Of a stretch of DNA of 64,000 nucleotides, positions 8,460 through 24,200 are shown one piece after another (within the stretch, counting starts at the first letter, position 1; the number at the start of each line of letters is the position of its first letter). The stretch is from assembly GCF_037076465.1 (NCBI RefSeq), contig NZ_AP028908.1, forward strand, positions 3,348,001 through 3,412,000, in the 5' to 3' direction. The DNA is from Pectobacterium araliae. GTDB lineage: Bacteria; Pseudomonadota; Gammaproteobacteria; Enterobacterales; Enterobacteriaceae. The notes under the pieces were generated by a model. That model did not search any database, was not told where the DNA came from, and saw only the letters and a program-made list of their open reading frames with translations. The position numbers and the translations under genes were made by a program.

Positions 8460-8466
8460 TCATAGG
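8451..8466. other. Element/Rhs junction, att-like palindrome (copy J1)
   Basis: CCTAT-CGGATC-ATAGG: five-base inverted arms around a six-base spacer, the format of a tyrosine-recombinase core site. The right arm belongs to the mobile unit; the left arm and spacer encode (minus strand) D-P-I-G of the tip B core end. The spacer differs by one base (A/G) from the other junctions. Confidence 0.7.
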
Positions 8467-8499
8467 GACGATCCCGACACGGTCGTACTTTTTAGCGCA

Positions 8500-9400
8500 C
8501 TTAACCTATTGAAGCAACGGCCTTTTCAGACGGCGTTTTCAGCCTGTTTAACACCACATTAACCCGAACACCCCGACGCGCACTTTTAGCCCCGGACACG
8601 CTACCGCCACGCTGTGACTTCCCTGTCTGCATAAGCCACATCATAGCAGCGGCGGCAGCCGCTGCCATTAGTCGTTTTGTCTTTCGGGGTTTACCACGGC
8701 AACCCGCACGGCTTCCGCAACTCGTTTGGGGAAGCCGGGCGGGTTCTGCGGGTGCGGGCGGCAAAGAGTCCGCAAGCGTCGGCCTGCGACGCTCTGTTGC
8801 ACGGTGCCGGAGGGAACGGCGGGTTTGCATGACCACGCCACACCGGGGCGGGTAGCGGAAGCTGGCGAGCGGGGAAGGAGCAAGGAGCCTGCCGACTGCG
8901 ACCCCGCGCAGCCAGACGCAGCCGGGCGGGCATAAAGCCGTTAAGCGCCGTGACGAAGGAGCGGCTTCTGCTTTGGGGTTGATGTTGACGTTGGCCGAGG
9001 ATTGACGCCGGAGCCTGCGCCGCCAGGGAAGGCGGCCACACCGTCGGAGCCAGGGAAGCACGCTGATGTTCGCAGCAGAGGGCGAAGCCCTGTGCGCCAC
9101 ACCTTACCCAAGCGCCGAACCCCGGCGGCCAGCCGCACGCCTTTGCCGAAGCAGCCCGCAGCGCGCCCATTGGCTGCCCGGCGCCGACATAATGTGTGTT
9201 ACGCGTGGGATGCGTCCAGCATCTTGCGCGTAATGCCACATTATGTTGAATGACGTTCGGCCAGCAACGTAACAGGAAGAGAGTGATGAAGGTTGGCGCT
9301 GGCCGGGCGACATTTACCGCCGGAGCACCTTAGCTGACCAAGGCAAGAGGTGCGCCACGGACGGCGCGCCTTTTGCCCGGCACCGTACCACGGCCTTGAA
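8500..9400. other. GC-rich region of the mobile unit without a credible gene (copy 1)
   Basis: About 900 bases between the integrase stop and the unit border are visibly more G+C-rich than the surroundings. They are open in several frames at once (up to 199 codons) with Arg/Ala/Pro-rich, low-complexity translations, which is typical of noncoding GC-rich DNA. Many short inverted repeats are visible. It lies downstream of the integrase on the same strand. It may hold a structured RNA, a replication origin or recombinase-binding sites. Its second copy is at 15091-15991. Confidence 0.55.
9188..9252. repeat. Inverted pair of dif-like sites (copy 1)
   Basis: CATAATGTG (9188-9196) and TTACGCG (9199-9205) are mirrored by CGCGTAA (9227-9233) and CACATTATG (9237-9245), giving a long hairpin with small bulges. 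The right arm reads GCGCGTAA-TGCCACA-TTATGTTGAAT. Its last 11 bases match the XerD half of E. coli dif at 10 of 11 positions, and its first part resembles the XerC half. Two inverted dif-like sites are reminiscent of the folded attP of XerCD-using phages. Confidence 0.55.
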
Positions 9401-9409
9401 GAGAGTGAG

Positions 9410-20831: not shown

Positions 20832-20869
20832 AAAAGCCGGAAGGATCGTGAGATCGCCTCCGGCTTTTA
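20832..20869. terminator. Bidirectional terminator (copy 2)
   Basis: Same GC stem with flanking A and T runs as at 14241. It ends the rhs-immunity transcript. Confidence 0.8.
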
Positions 20870-20870
20870 T

Positions 20871-21242
20871 TTATTTTATTTTAACTTCCCAAGATGAACT
20901 ATCGAAGACATTAATTATCGCAAAACAATTAGTTAAATTATCAACATCAACATCAACATATGATAATAGATCAGGACTAGCCACTATAAAAAATGTCTTT
21001 ATATCATCTAGATGATTAGCTAATAGTTTCACTTCATCCCACGTCATTTCTAGTCCGTATTCTTTCGATAAAACCAACTCTTCAAAGTCAGGCATAGACA
21101 AGCCATAGAATGCACAACCTATCGCATCGATTTCATACAGATACCAATTCCAATTGTTATCAGGGATTTTTTTTATTAGATCATTTAGCTGCAACTTAAT
21201 ATTTTCGTGAGAAAACATTTTACCCATTTCAACTCTCATCAT
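20871..21242 (-). CDS. Immunity protein for Rhs tip A (functional copy)
   Basis: Identical to the protein at 14280. Its start codon overlaps the rhs stop (ATGA at 21239-21242), so it is translated together with the full-length Rhs toxin and should protect the producer and its siblings. The fold is not recognised. Confidence 0.75.
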   Translation of the reverse strand: MMRVEMGKMFSHENIKLQLNDLIKKIPDNNWNWYLYEIDAIGCAFYGLSMPDFEELVLSKEYGLEMTWDEVKLLANHLDDIKTFFIVASPDLLSYVDVDVDNLTNCFAIINVFDSSSWEVKIK

Positions 21243-24200
21243 GGATACTCCAGTGGCTTAGCTGGCCCATGTTGAAGTGTTCCTCCAGTCGGGTTAGGGA
21301 TAAAATCATGCTGGTGAGGATTAGGGTGATTACCTGGGCGACCATGATCTGTAAAATCTATATCTCTCTTAGGTACAAGTTTTCCATTGTCATCGTATCC
21401 CCATTCCCTACCTTGAAGATAATCACCTTTCCTACCCTTCTTCATTCCCAACTGAGTATGAGGAGCATCAACATCAGGGACAGGATTCCCATGTTTGTCT
21501 CTGGGTAAGGATCTATTTTTATAAGACTCGTCAGTTTTATCTTTCCCGCCTTCTTTCGGCGTCAACCCCAACGGGTCAACCCATTCTAATGGGTTATGAA
21601 CATAACCTTGAGGCCGGATTCCCCCAAGTAAACCTATCGGGTCCTGCGACAGGTACTGCCCGCTCTGTGCATCATAGTAACGATGCCGGTTGTAGTAAAG
21701 CCCCGTTTCCGTATCGTACAACTGCCCCTGATAGCGCAGCTCACAGTACACTTCCTCATTCGCCGCATCGCCCAGGTAGCGCCGCAGCGGGATGGGGCGT
21801 CGCTCTTCACGATGTGCGCCCCACAGCCCCTGCTCCCCGCGCCAGCGAACTTCCCCTTCCTCACTGCACAGCTCTCTTGCCGTCCCCGTCAGGTCGGTCA
21901 CGATGTAATGCAGTTGTGTTCTGTCCCCCTGCGCTTCCACCTGTGCCAGCGGCCGAAAGCTACCCGGCTCGTACACCCACTGTACTTCCCTTGCCGCACT
22001 GCCATCTGCATAGTATTGCTGCTGACCGATAAGCTGGTCACCGTCCCAGCGATACGCCACCCGCGCTACCGCCTGCGCCGACGGGAGTTGTCCCTCGCGC
22101 ACCTTGCTTACCCGGCGACCAAACGCATCGTAACGATACCGCCATCGTGCCCCGTCCGGCAAACTCACCCGCACCAGACGGTCCTGTACATCCCAGTCAA
22201 AGTGCGTGTCCTTCGGCCTGAACCCCGCCCGCGTTTCCCGCTTCATCACCAGACGTCCACAGTCATCGTACCGGTACTGCGTATGGCCACGCTCCACCAC
22301 CCGACCCGCCGCATCGTACCGTGCCGACGACTGCACCACCGCATCCTGCACCTTCAGCGTCTCACCCAGTCCCGGCGCTATCTGCGACACCTCGCACAGG
22401 TTCTGTTCGCTGTCGTAACCAAACAGCCGCGCCTGACGCCGCCGTCCTTCATCACGACGCTCCGCCGTTACCTGACCCGCCCCGTTCAGCCGGAATGCCT
22501 GCTCACCCCAGTGACTGTCGCTGATGCCCGTCAGGCGGTCCAGCACATCGTACTGATAACGACGCTCCAGCACGTCATTCACCCGACCATCCGCCCCTTC
22601 CAGCGCCTGACGCTGTAGCAGCCCCGTCGGACTCCATTCGTGGCGTAGTGAAAACCCGCTGCCGTTACTCCGGCGTTGCTCTTCTCCCGCCGCCGTATGG
22701 CTGAACTGCAACGGCTGGTGTGAACCAATCCCCAGCGACGACAGCCGCCCCGACTGCCACGCCAGTTGCAGTGGCGCCAGAATCCCTTCGACCACGGCAC
22801 GCTGACCGCCCGCATCGTAACCGCTCTGCACCGCCTCGCCGTTCACCGTTTCCGATGTCACCTGCCCTGCACGGTTATAGGCGTATTCCACCACCGCATC
22901 CGGGCTGGCGGCTTTGATTAACCGTCCCGCTACGTCATACGCCAGTTCCGTGATGCCGTCCGTTTCCCCGTCCGCTTTCCGCGCCGTGATACGCGTTATC
23001 CGCCCTGCCGCATCATGCTCGTAGTGCAGCGTACTGCCATCCGGTGCGGTGCGCTGCACCAGCCGGTCTGCCACATCGTAGTCATAACGGTACACCCGAC
23101 CGTCGTAATGCCGCTCCTCGCTCAACCGACCGCTGGAGTCAAAGCTGTACGTCCAGTCCCGTCCCTGACTGTTCGTTACCCCGGCGAACTCCGCTTCCGC
23201 ATTGTAGTGGTAGCGCACCGTTGCACCCAGCGGGTCAGTCGCTTCCAGCAGGTTATCGAACGCCCCATAGCGGAACTGATAACGCTGCCCCAGCGCATCC
23301 GTCACCGCCGTCAGGTTACCTTCCACATCGTAGCCAAACCGCGTCTCGCTGCCATCTTCATACACCACTTTCGACGGTGATTCGCGTACGCCGTCATACT
23401 CCCAGCGCCGCACCTGTACGCCCGCTTCATGCCCGATATGTCGCTCGGTCAGGCGGTCAAGGTCGTCATAGCGGAACATCACCGCTGGCGTATTATCCCG
23501 CTCAAGGCGGCTCAGCAAGCCACGGCGGTTATAGTGATAACGCTGCAACACACCGTCCGGGCCTATCACCGTCGACAGTTGCCCTGTTTCACCATAACGG
23601 TACAGCCACTCGCGTCCTTCCGGGTCATTAACCTCGACAACCTGCCCGACGGCATTACGCTGATAGCGCCATTCACTGCTCAGTGGGTCGGTATAGCTCA
23701 GCAGTTGTCCATTGTCGTCATAGGCATACTGATGCGTTGCGCCGTCAGGCAGCGTCACTTCTGTCACCAGCCCCCAGTCATTGCGCTGATACACCGTACG
23801 GCCACCCAGCGGGTCAGTCTCCGCCACCAGTTGGTTATCTACCCACTCGTATCGGGTCTCACCGCCGTCCGGCGTGCGCTGGAGCAGAATATTATTGCGC
23901 TCGTCACGCACGTAGCTGAATACCCCGCCAAATCCGCTGTGGTAATGGCTGGTTAGGGTGTCATCGTCATATTCAAAGTGCCCCGGCCAGTAGCCTTCCG
24001 AGGTTCTGTCCCGGATCGCCCGGCCTTTTTTATCGTAGTCATGCTCAACCCAGGTTGAGCCTAAATCCGACCAGCGTAGTAGCCAGCCTTCTTGTGAGTA
24101 GCGATAGTCAAAGTTACGCCCCTCATCTGCCCGTACGCTCAGTAGATGCCCATGGTCATCATAGGTATAGCTTGCCAGCGTTTTTAATGGCTGACGCTGC

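Follow-up and report, generated by a model that had tools for sequence, protein, structure and literature searches.

The displacement model for rhs C termini, as given in the accessible part of its original account, invokes homologous recombination, and its authors stated there that they knew of no integrase co-occurring with Rhs (Jackson 2009, PMC2935791). As far as the available sections of the following articles go, integrase-like genes lie near Rhs genes of bee gut bacteria and were suggested to aid Rhs sequence capture (Steele 2017, PMC5727410); orphan C-terminal domain (CT)/immunity arrays with intervening integrase and transposase genes led to the suggestion of site-specific recombination (PMC4927057); polyimmunity loci beside XerC/D genes were noted in 2012 (PMC3482391); and in V. 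cholerae the authors saw no evidence of integrase-aided effector-immunity insertion (PMC5361080). Here we analyze a 64,000-nucleotide stretch of Pectobacterium araliae (contig NZ_AP028908.1, positions 3,348,001 to 3,412,000; the window), in which a 6591-bp unit stands twice in tandem between the core of an rhs gene and a displaced tip. Each unit is very probably an autonomous integrative element that inserts at the codons of the rhs core/tip border and carries a toxin tip and its immunity gene as cargo.

The unit resembles the displacement model, within the accessible part of that paper (PMC2935791), in that a circle-borne new tip would arrive at the core/tip border and the old tip is kept downstream, and it differs in carrying an integrase, attachment (att) sites and a primase where the model has homologous recombination. 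The available sections on the bee gut integrases (PMC5727410) do not describe an element, its borders, an att site, a primase or an unoccupied site; those on the contact-dependent inhibition (CDI) arrays (PMC4927057) give no defined unit, target codons or single-unit circle.

Integrons likewise combine a tyrosine recombinase with circles and ordered arrays in which the newest cargo comes first, as would be the case for the present element; they differ in that the present autonomous unit has its own integrase and a target inside a coding sequence, and the integron integrase model gave our integrase 118.7 bits, short of its cut-off of 265. GMT islands carry type VI secretion system (T6SS) effectors with a recombinase, a likeness in cargo that does not extend to the enzyme (GmtY model, 16.5 bits, cut-off 340). 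In the shufflon, a tyrosine recombinase swaps C-terminal segments of surface proteins by local inversion of a fixed set, whereas the present element would insert as mobile units. The chemistry and the displaced arrays are of kinds already known; a tip-delivering unit targeting a coding border is not described in the literature covered, namely, the open-licence full texts of PMC (most subscription papers and bioRxiv lie outside this scope), where we found no description of the element. An earlier note on this DNA was not aware of a description; within this scope that stands for the element, while integrases near rhs or cdi arrays had already been noted.

RESULTS

Structure of the tandem unit

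The 6591-bp unit is present in 100% identical direct tandem: from position 8460, every base equals the base 6591 positions further on for 6593 consecutive positions, that is, two full units, 15053-21643 (adjoining the Rhs core) and 8462-15052, plus two common bases (GA). Read on the minus strand, the junctions are TCGCAG/GACCCGATAGGT at the core, CCCTAT/GACCCGATAGGT between the units and CCCTAT/GATCCGATAGGT at the displaced tip, the unit borders being CAG/GACCCGATAGG, CCCTAT/GACCCGATAGG and CCCTAT/GATCCGATAGG, respectively, and all three junctions encode Asp-Pro-Ile-Gly (DPIG). Each unit carries, in order, tip A, a putative immunity gene, SymE-like and Xre-type genes on the opposite strand, a CHC2/Toprim primase-like gene, a tyrosine integrase and a tail of about 950 bp. 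The exact tandem, the gene content (here identified as SymE, PF08845; Xre-type helix-turn-helix [HTH]; CHC2/Toprim; PF00589; distal ribonuclease, PF00545; barstar, PF01337) and the start of all three tips at DPIG codons had been seen in the earlier note and are confirmed. The features, from core to displaced tip, are as follows (ORF, open reading frame).

21644..26308, minus strand: Rhs core, target gene (N-terminal part of ORF 21239-26308); PF05593 RHS_repeat in 9 stretches, PF03527 RHS
21632..21649, minus strand: attL, core TCGCAG / GACCCG / ATAGGT (compared with the third copy, L014)
15053..21643, minus strand: unit 1, 6591 bp, in-frame fusion to the core
21239..21643, minus strand: tip A of unit 1, in frame with the core (putative toxin domain)
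20871..21242, minus strand: putative immunity gene of tip A, unit 1 (by position only)
20529..20810, plus strand: SymE-like gene, unit 1, identical to the unit 2 copy
20517..20591, minus strand: SymR-like antisense RNA (weak), unit 1, over the symE start; RF01809, 37 bits, gathering threshold 61
20097..20507, plus strand: Xre-type regulator, unit 1, identical to the unit 2 copy
17089..19983, minus strand: primase-like protein, 964 amino acids (aa), unit 1, identical to the unit 2 copy
16001..17044, minus strand: tyrosine integrase, 347 aa, unit 1, identical to the unit 2 copy
15041..15058, minus strand: att between units, CCCTAT / GACCCG / ATAGGT, inverted arms 5/6, 6-bp spacer
8462..15052, minus strand: unit 2, 6591 bp, identical to unit 1
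14648..15052, minus strand: tip A of unit 2, no core attached
14280..14651, minus strand: putative immunity gene of tip A, unit 2 (by position only)
13938..14219, plus strand: SymE-like gene, unit 2; PF08845, E 4e-23
13926..14000, minus strand: SymR-like antisense RNA (weak), unit 2, over the symE start; RF01809, 37 bits, gathering threshold 61
13506..13916, plus strand: Xre-type regulator, unit 2; HTH_3; RstR family 64.6 bits, below the cut-off of 80
10498..13392, minus strand: primase-like protein, 964 aa, unit 2; CHC2 Zn ribbon and Toprim
9410..10453, minus strand: tyrosine integrase, 347 aa, unit 2; PF00589; NF002331, 568.6 bits, cut-off 371
8462..9409, minus strand: tail of unit 2 behind the integrase, about 950 bp, ending at att (same tail in unit 1 at 15053-16000)
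8450..8467, minus strand: attR at the displaced tip, CCCTAT / GATCCG / ATAGGT
7973..8461, minus strand: displaced older tip, ribonuclease-like, beginning at DPIG; PF00545; directly behind the same core in a congener
7592..7960, minus strand: barstar-like immunity gene of the displaced tip; PF01337
7276..7533, plus strand: SymE-like gene behind the displaced tip; PF08845

Tip A has no match in Pfam or NCBIfam, and its immunity gene has a single sub-threshold Pfam match (SpoIIAA-like, 15 bits, cut-off 25), so that the labels "toxin" and "immunity" for this pair rest on position.

Two identical units are also what unequal crossing-over or an assembly artefact could leave behind. The borders, however, lie exactly at att, a single third copy stands elsewhere in the genome (see below), and there are tandems whose units bear different tips (L068 among them). 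Units repeated perfectly in tandem were also seen in Pectobacterium aroidearum L6 (6705 bp, on a complete chromosome) and Xenorhabdus vietnamensis (6622 bp), making an artefact less likely; the window's genome itself is a single contig. We therefore rejected an assembly artefact on the att borders, the separate third copy and the tandems of other genomes, and consider that this explanation, in either form, has almost no chance of being correct.

Insertion in unrelated rhs genes and unoccupied sites

A third identical unit (L014:4566-11158, 6593/6593 bases) lies about 1 Mb away in a different rhs gene, whose core has about 25% protein identity and no blastn similarity to that of the window. It is inserted at the same DPIG codons, in frame (ORF L014:828-4970), and a different displaced tip lies behind it. 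Three integrases of the genome are identical; six others are relatives, at 70, 68 and 48% identity and, more distantly, at 38, 32 and 25%. Behind an rhs core of this genome, an element at L016:7493-9356 (approximately 517492-519355) has a primase without about residues 274-611; we regard it as a decaying or non-autonomous unit.

Tip displacement by homologous recombination, with the integrase as a bystander, is the model established for rhs (PMC2935791, accessible part), and it agrees with the orphan tips joined to core fragments that also occur in this genome (L015), as well as with the similarity of the linker after DPIG, over which the start of tip A aligns with the displaced tip of the window (61 against 30 in shuffles). 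The same comparison in L014 gave no alignment above shuffles (25 against 29). Several observations speak against this model: (i) the two rhs cores have just 5 bases in common left of att; (ii) their 500-bp flanks align barely above the shuffled maximum (35 against 33) and the displaced-side flanks like shuffles (24 against 27); (iii) no core homology was found on the incoming DNA, the right end of the element scoring 21 and 23 against the core in the two loci, with shuffled maxima of 32 and 28. The lack of core homology on the element, together with the near lack of it in the flanks, makes homologous recombination a poor explanation.

Natural unoccupied sites add to this argument. An rhs core of E. 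coli EC9 is separated from a distal tip by two units that carry different tips; in E. coli TK3887 this distal tip is joined straight to the core, with no element. Compared with TK3887, EC9 has 13,295 bp inserted at DPIG, with 0/1500 mismatches on the tip side and 5/1500 on the core side. At spacer position 3, attL has the C of the element and attR the T of the host, which places the crossover inside 2 bp (GA). The EC9 distal tip, used as a query, matched 151 of 5426 E. coli genomes; among the 40 matches listed, 12 begin at the element end (three of them also annotated as RHS), 11 begin only at DPIG, all annotated within an RHS protein, and the remaining 17 are short and partial. The window's locus has an unoccupied version in a congener (L127), where the core (89.7%, 1496 bp) is followed 4 bases on by the window's displaced tip (93.9%, 901 bp), with no element between them; in a second congener (L128) the tip is present and the core is matched in short stretches only. 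Precise ends and an unoccupied site, by which an integrative element is recognized, are thus found in both TK3887/EC9 and L127. The same element in non-homologous rhs genes and the precise unoccupied alleles argue against homologous recombination, which, with the E. coli crossover mapped to 2 bp, is very improbable and already nearly refuted. A mechanism distinct from it had been suggested in the earlier note and is supported by these two lines of evidence.

att sites and circular records

The attP arms form inverted repeats in the 34 elements with both ends resolved, matching at 6/6 positions in 8 elements, at 5 in 18, at 4 in 6 and at 3 in 2; the match is thus at least 5/6 in 26/34, and the core-side arm reaches at most 3/6 in 17/17. 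These counts are uncorrected for L015, whose left end was misplaced by 66 bases at a second DPxG and gives 6/6 at the correct position.

A circular record without an rhs core exists for a relative. Lonsdalea populi NZ_CP072857.1 (L091; 11,289 bp, circular, annotated as a plasmid) holds a complete unit and a second one that has a truncated primase and lacks an integrase; both begin at att. By its sequence, the record is consistent with a composite excised circle able to carry a non-autonomous unit. With regard to the earlier proposal that a circle inserts at the core/tip border, the borders and unoccupied alleles agree with it, while a circle was seen for a relative only.

Survey of related elements

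Elements were picked by integrase or unit similarity, independently of rhs. A genome-contig scan with the integrase alignment gave 244 candidates, of which the best 80, or 70 distinct loci, were kept, and 100 non-identical elements were classed, from genome-contig loci (81), the window's genome, E. coli (4) and 4 of the 5 opened plasmid loci (L092 omitted). The right end could be judged in 78 of the 100, with DPxG-type codons in 60/78, where 1.27 of the 60 would be expected in shuffles; this expectation refers to a pattern widened after viewing the Photorhabdus ends, which the first pattern, finding 49, had missed, and one of the 60 is a false match (L095, "DPEK"). Within the genome-contig set alone the figure is 45 of 60 judged. 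Of the 60 right ends found with the pattern, 55 lie at a distance of 900-1100 bp behind the integrase. In the remaining 22 of the 100 elements, the contig stops within 1100 bp, in four of them at att (L018, L019, L033 and L036). Left ends were resolved in 50 elements, 3 of which were dropped as the primase start lay off the contig; the remaining 47 comprise 25 in-frame core fusions, 13 ends behind another unit and 9 at a contig edge or other position.

Two further arrangements were seen. At an rhs locus of E. coli EC77 (L125), a long array includes ISAs1-type insertions and, in the stretch shown, four integrase genes, two of which are frameshifted. In two genomes of the same order (L121 and L122), a distant integrase (34%) lies beside IstA/IstB-like genes (by eye), with an Rhs-type tip downstream; this arrangement may be another backbone serving the same function.

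Tips as cargo

The 47 elements with a resolved left end carry 30 tip clusters, in line with the earlier expectation of different tips in related units. A tip cluster is shared by 13/23 element pairs with integrase identity of at least 98%, 2/68 at 90-98%, 0/59 at 75-90% and 12/931 below 75%. Different tips stand on identical integrases in E. coli, P. thracensis and X. japonica, and the tip of the window clusters with that of one EC9 unit, the integrases being 61% alike. A putative immunity gene follows the tip wherever annotated.

These data bear on the possibility that a generic integrative element harbors in rhs and that its tip merely restores the broken 3' end, as in some prophages, with exchange a side effect. 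Integrases commonly integrate into conserved codons, and 25/47 resolved left ends run an open core frame into the element's tip, as such a restoration would. The tip is, however, not the target's own 3' end, as its diversity and the identical integrases with different tips indicate, and the putative immunity gene behind it also tells against mere restoration. We consider this explanation unlikely and prefer to read the tip and immunity gene as cargo.

Other carrier genes

Relatives of the element occupy other contact-dependent toxin genes. In a CdiA gene of the window's genome (L017, 2404000-2423500), encoding Fil_haemagg_2 and PT-VENN domains, an element with integrase and primase identities of 46-48% and 57-60% sits between its tip and a displaced VENN tip, with att GTTGTT/GTGGAG/AATAAC. 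Further displaced CTs lie behind this element. In an Enterobacter plasmid (L093), the integrase is followed by GTTGTT/GTTGAG/AATAAC. Pseudomonas and Paraburkholderia plasmids have the module behind hemagglutinin-type proteins with DUF637; the Paraburkholderia border is at CAGACTGCGAT, and that of the Pseudomonas plasmid was looked for and not found.

Model NF002331 (see below) matched 9 of 398 genomes in an even draw of the phylum, the window's genome included, and 0/14 controls. Wider regions were fetched for 6 of the 8 other genomes (G425 and G458 left out): Rhs stands at the NF002331 integrase in G232 and G389 (Pfam), a hemagglutinin-like frame precedes the integrase in G357 and G336 (by eye; the G336 stretch without a primase match), and in G006 and G438 a more distant integrase, not accompanied by this primase, has an Rhs-type tip downstream (by eye). 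Target type tracks the integrase tree, with 3 changes, the minimum, against a shuffled mean of 8.8 and 0/200 shuffles as low; 30 of the 82 rows carried no label and L093 was lost to a length filter, G357 and G336 were labelled TpsA by eye, and deep placements are uncertain owing to some long branches. The location of the integrase/primase pair 3' of Rhs tips, predicted in the earlier note, holds largely, the departures being CdiA VENN, TpsA-type genes, another Rhs site and at least one copy outside rhs.

Integrase and primase

The integrase exceeds the curated cut-off of NCBIfam NF002331 ("XerC" subfamily PRK01287; 568.6 against 371 bits), and its RR, K, H-x-x-R, H and Y columns, which we take to be the catalytic residues, are invariant across 8 sequences. 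A housekeeping XerC role was rejected on scores below the XerC and XerD equivalog cut-offs (234.8 against 335.15 and 229.2 against 329.6 bits). The primase matched 118 of 50,697 phage records, none across 80% of its length, with identity of at most 31.2% among the matches listed (20/118), and viral contigs gave 3 partial matches; going by these matches, phage primases would be distant relatives only. An HTH-CHC2 primase-integrase module is also present on Leptospira plasmids (L097 and L096). In L097, ParA/ParB adjoin the module, hinting at a plasmid-replication origin of the backbone; two large proteins stand nearby, one without a Pfam match and the other with one sub-threshold match.

Elsewhere in the window, T6SS-type genes lie farther upstream of the Rhs core (by eye, ORF list); a repeat of about 168 bp (30465-30632) recurs 669 bp on, between PAAR-type and VgrG-type genes (by eye), and, by eye, a frame at 57031-58137 on the far side of this T6SS cluster resembles a second tyrosine integrase.

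DISCUSSION

The structure of the locus suggests the following course of events: (i) the NF002331-subfamily recombinase would join attP (CCCTAT-GACCCG-ATAGGT) of a circular form to the GAYCCG-ATAGG codons (Asp-Pro-Ile-Gly) at the 3' end of the rhs core; (ii) the reading frame of the core would then continue into the new tip, leaving the old tip with its immunity gene downstream, behind the right end of the element; (iii) arrays would be built by repeated integration or by integration of a dimer, and att-by-att recombination within them would release circles; (iv) the probable roles of the CHC2/Toprim and Xre proteins are, respectively, priming of circle replication and repression of the element. 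On this reading, the recombinase and primase would be active, units may pass between cells, and the retained immunity may protect the cell during the switch, as the earlier note proposed.

Several observations weigh against this account. The Lonsdalea record may be a misassembled array, and a second circle, Shigella NZ_CP055112.1 (L092), holds an rhs core fragment and an insertion sequence (IS) and is thus not a clean excision product. One of the two EC9 integrases, that of the first unit, is annotated as frameshifted. A DPxG-type right end is lacking in 18/78 elements: three are elements of CdiA/TpsA toxins (L017, L093 and L094); in L076, L080 and L083 the right end falls at a second Rhs site, the DGLN codons (the DGLN left end seen in L083 only); seven have an Rhs core fragment downstream (L050, L059, L062, L075 and L085-L087); and L054, L057, L063, L064 and L084 are unassignable. 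L064 equals L063 over 7377 bp and yet lies outside rhs; its right end is in a phage terminase gene (a terminase-type frame by eye), and an IS-type transposase, also by eye, stands at the opposite side. Prevalence is low: the E. coli integrase of this kind has matches in 55/5426 E. coli genomes (195 places), and the primase is found in 3/119 genomes of the order and 13/25 of the genus (window's genome included). Most orphan rhs tips must consequently have another origin; orphan tips joined to core fragments are present in this genome as well (L015).

We consider it likely that the unit belongs to a wide class of tip-delivery elements that replicate themselves and share a backbone of HTH protein, CHC2 primase and integrase, in which integrase clades are specialized to the conserved codons immediately before the swappable domain of contact-dependent toxins (Rhs DP/IG, Rhs DG/LN, CdiA VE/NN and TpsA-type). 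Circles, including composite ones mobilizing integrase-less units, would load new toxin-immunity pairs onto the carrier gene of the next cell, much as integrons do with cassettes, and the resulting array would record past immunity.

To conclude, how new tips are gained at a precise border without homology or loss of immunity has been an open question since the displacement model. Now that a candidate circle and unoccupied sites can be seen alongside the integrase and the codons it would target, the question becomes a standard recombination assay, and, judging from the related CdiA and TpsA elements, several secretion routes may share one backbone.

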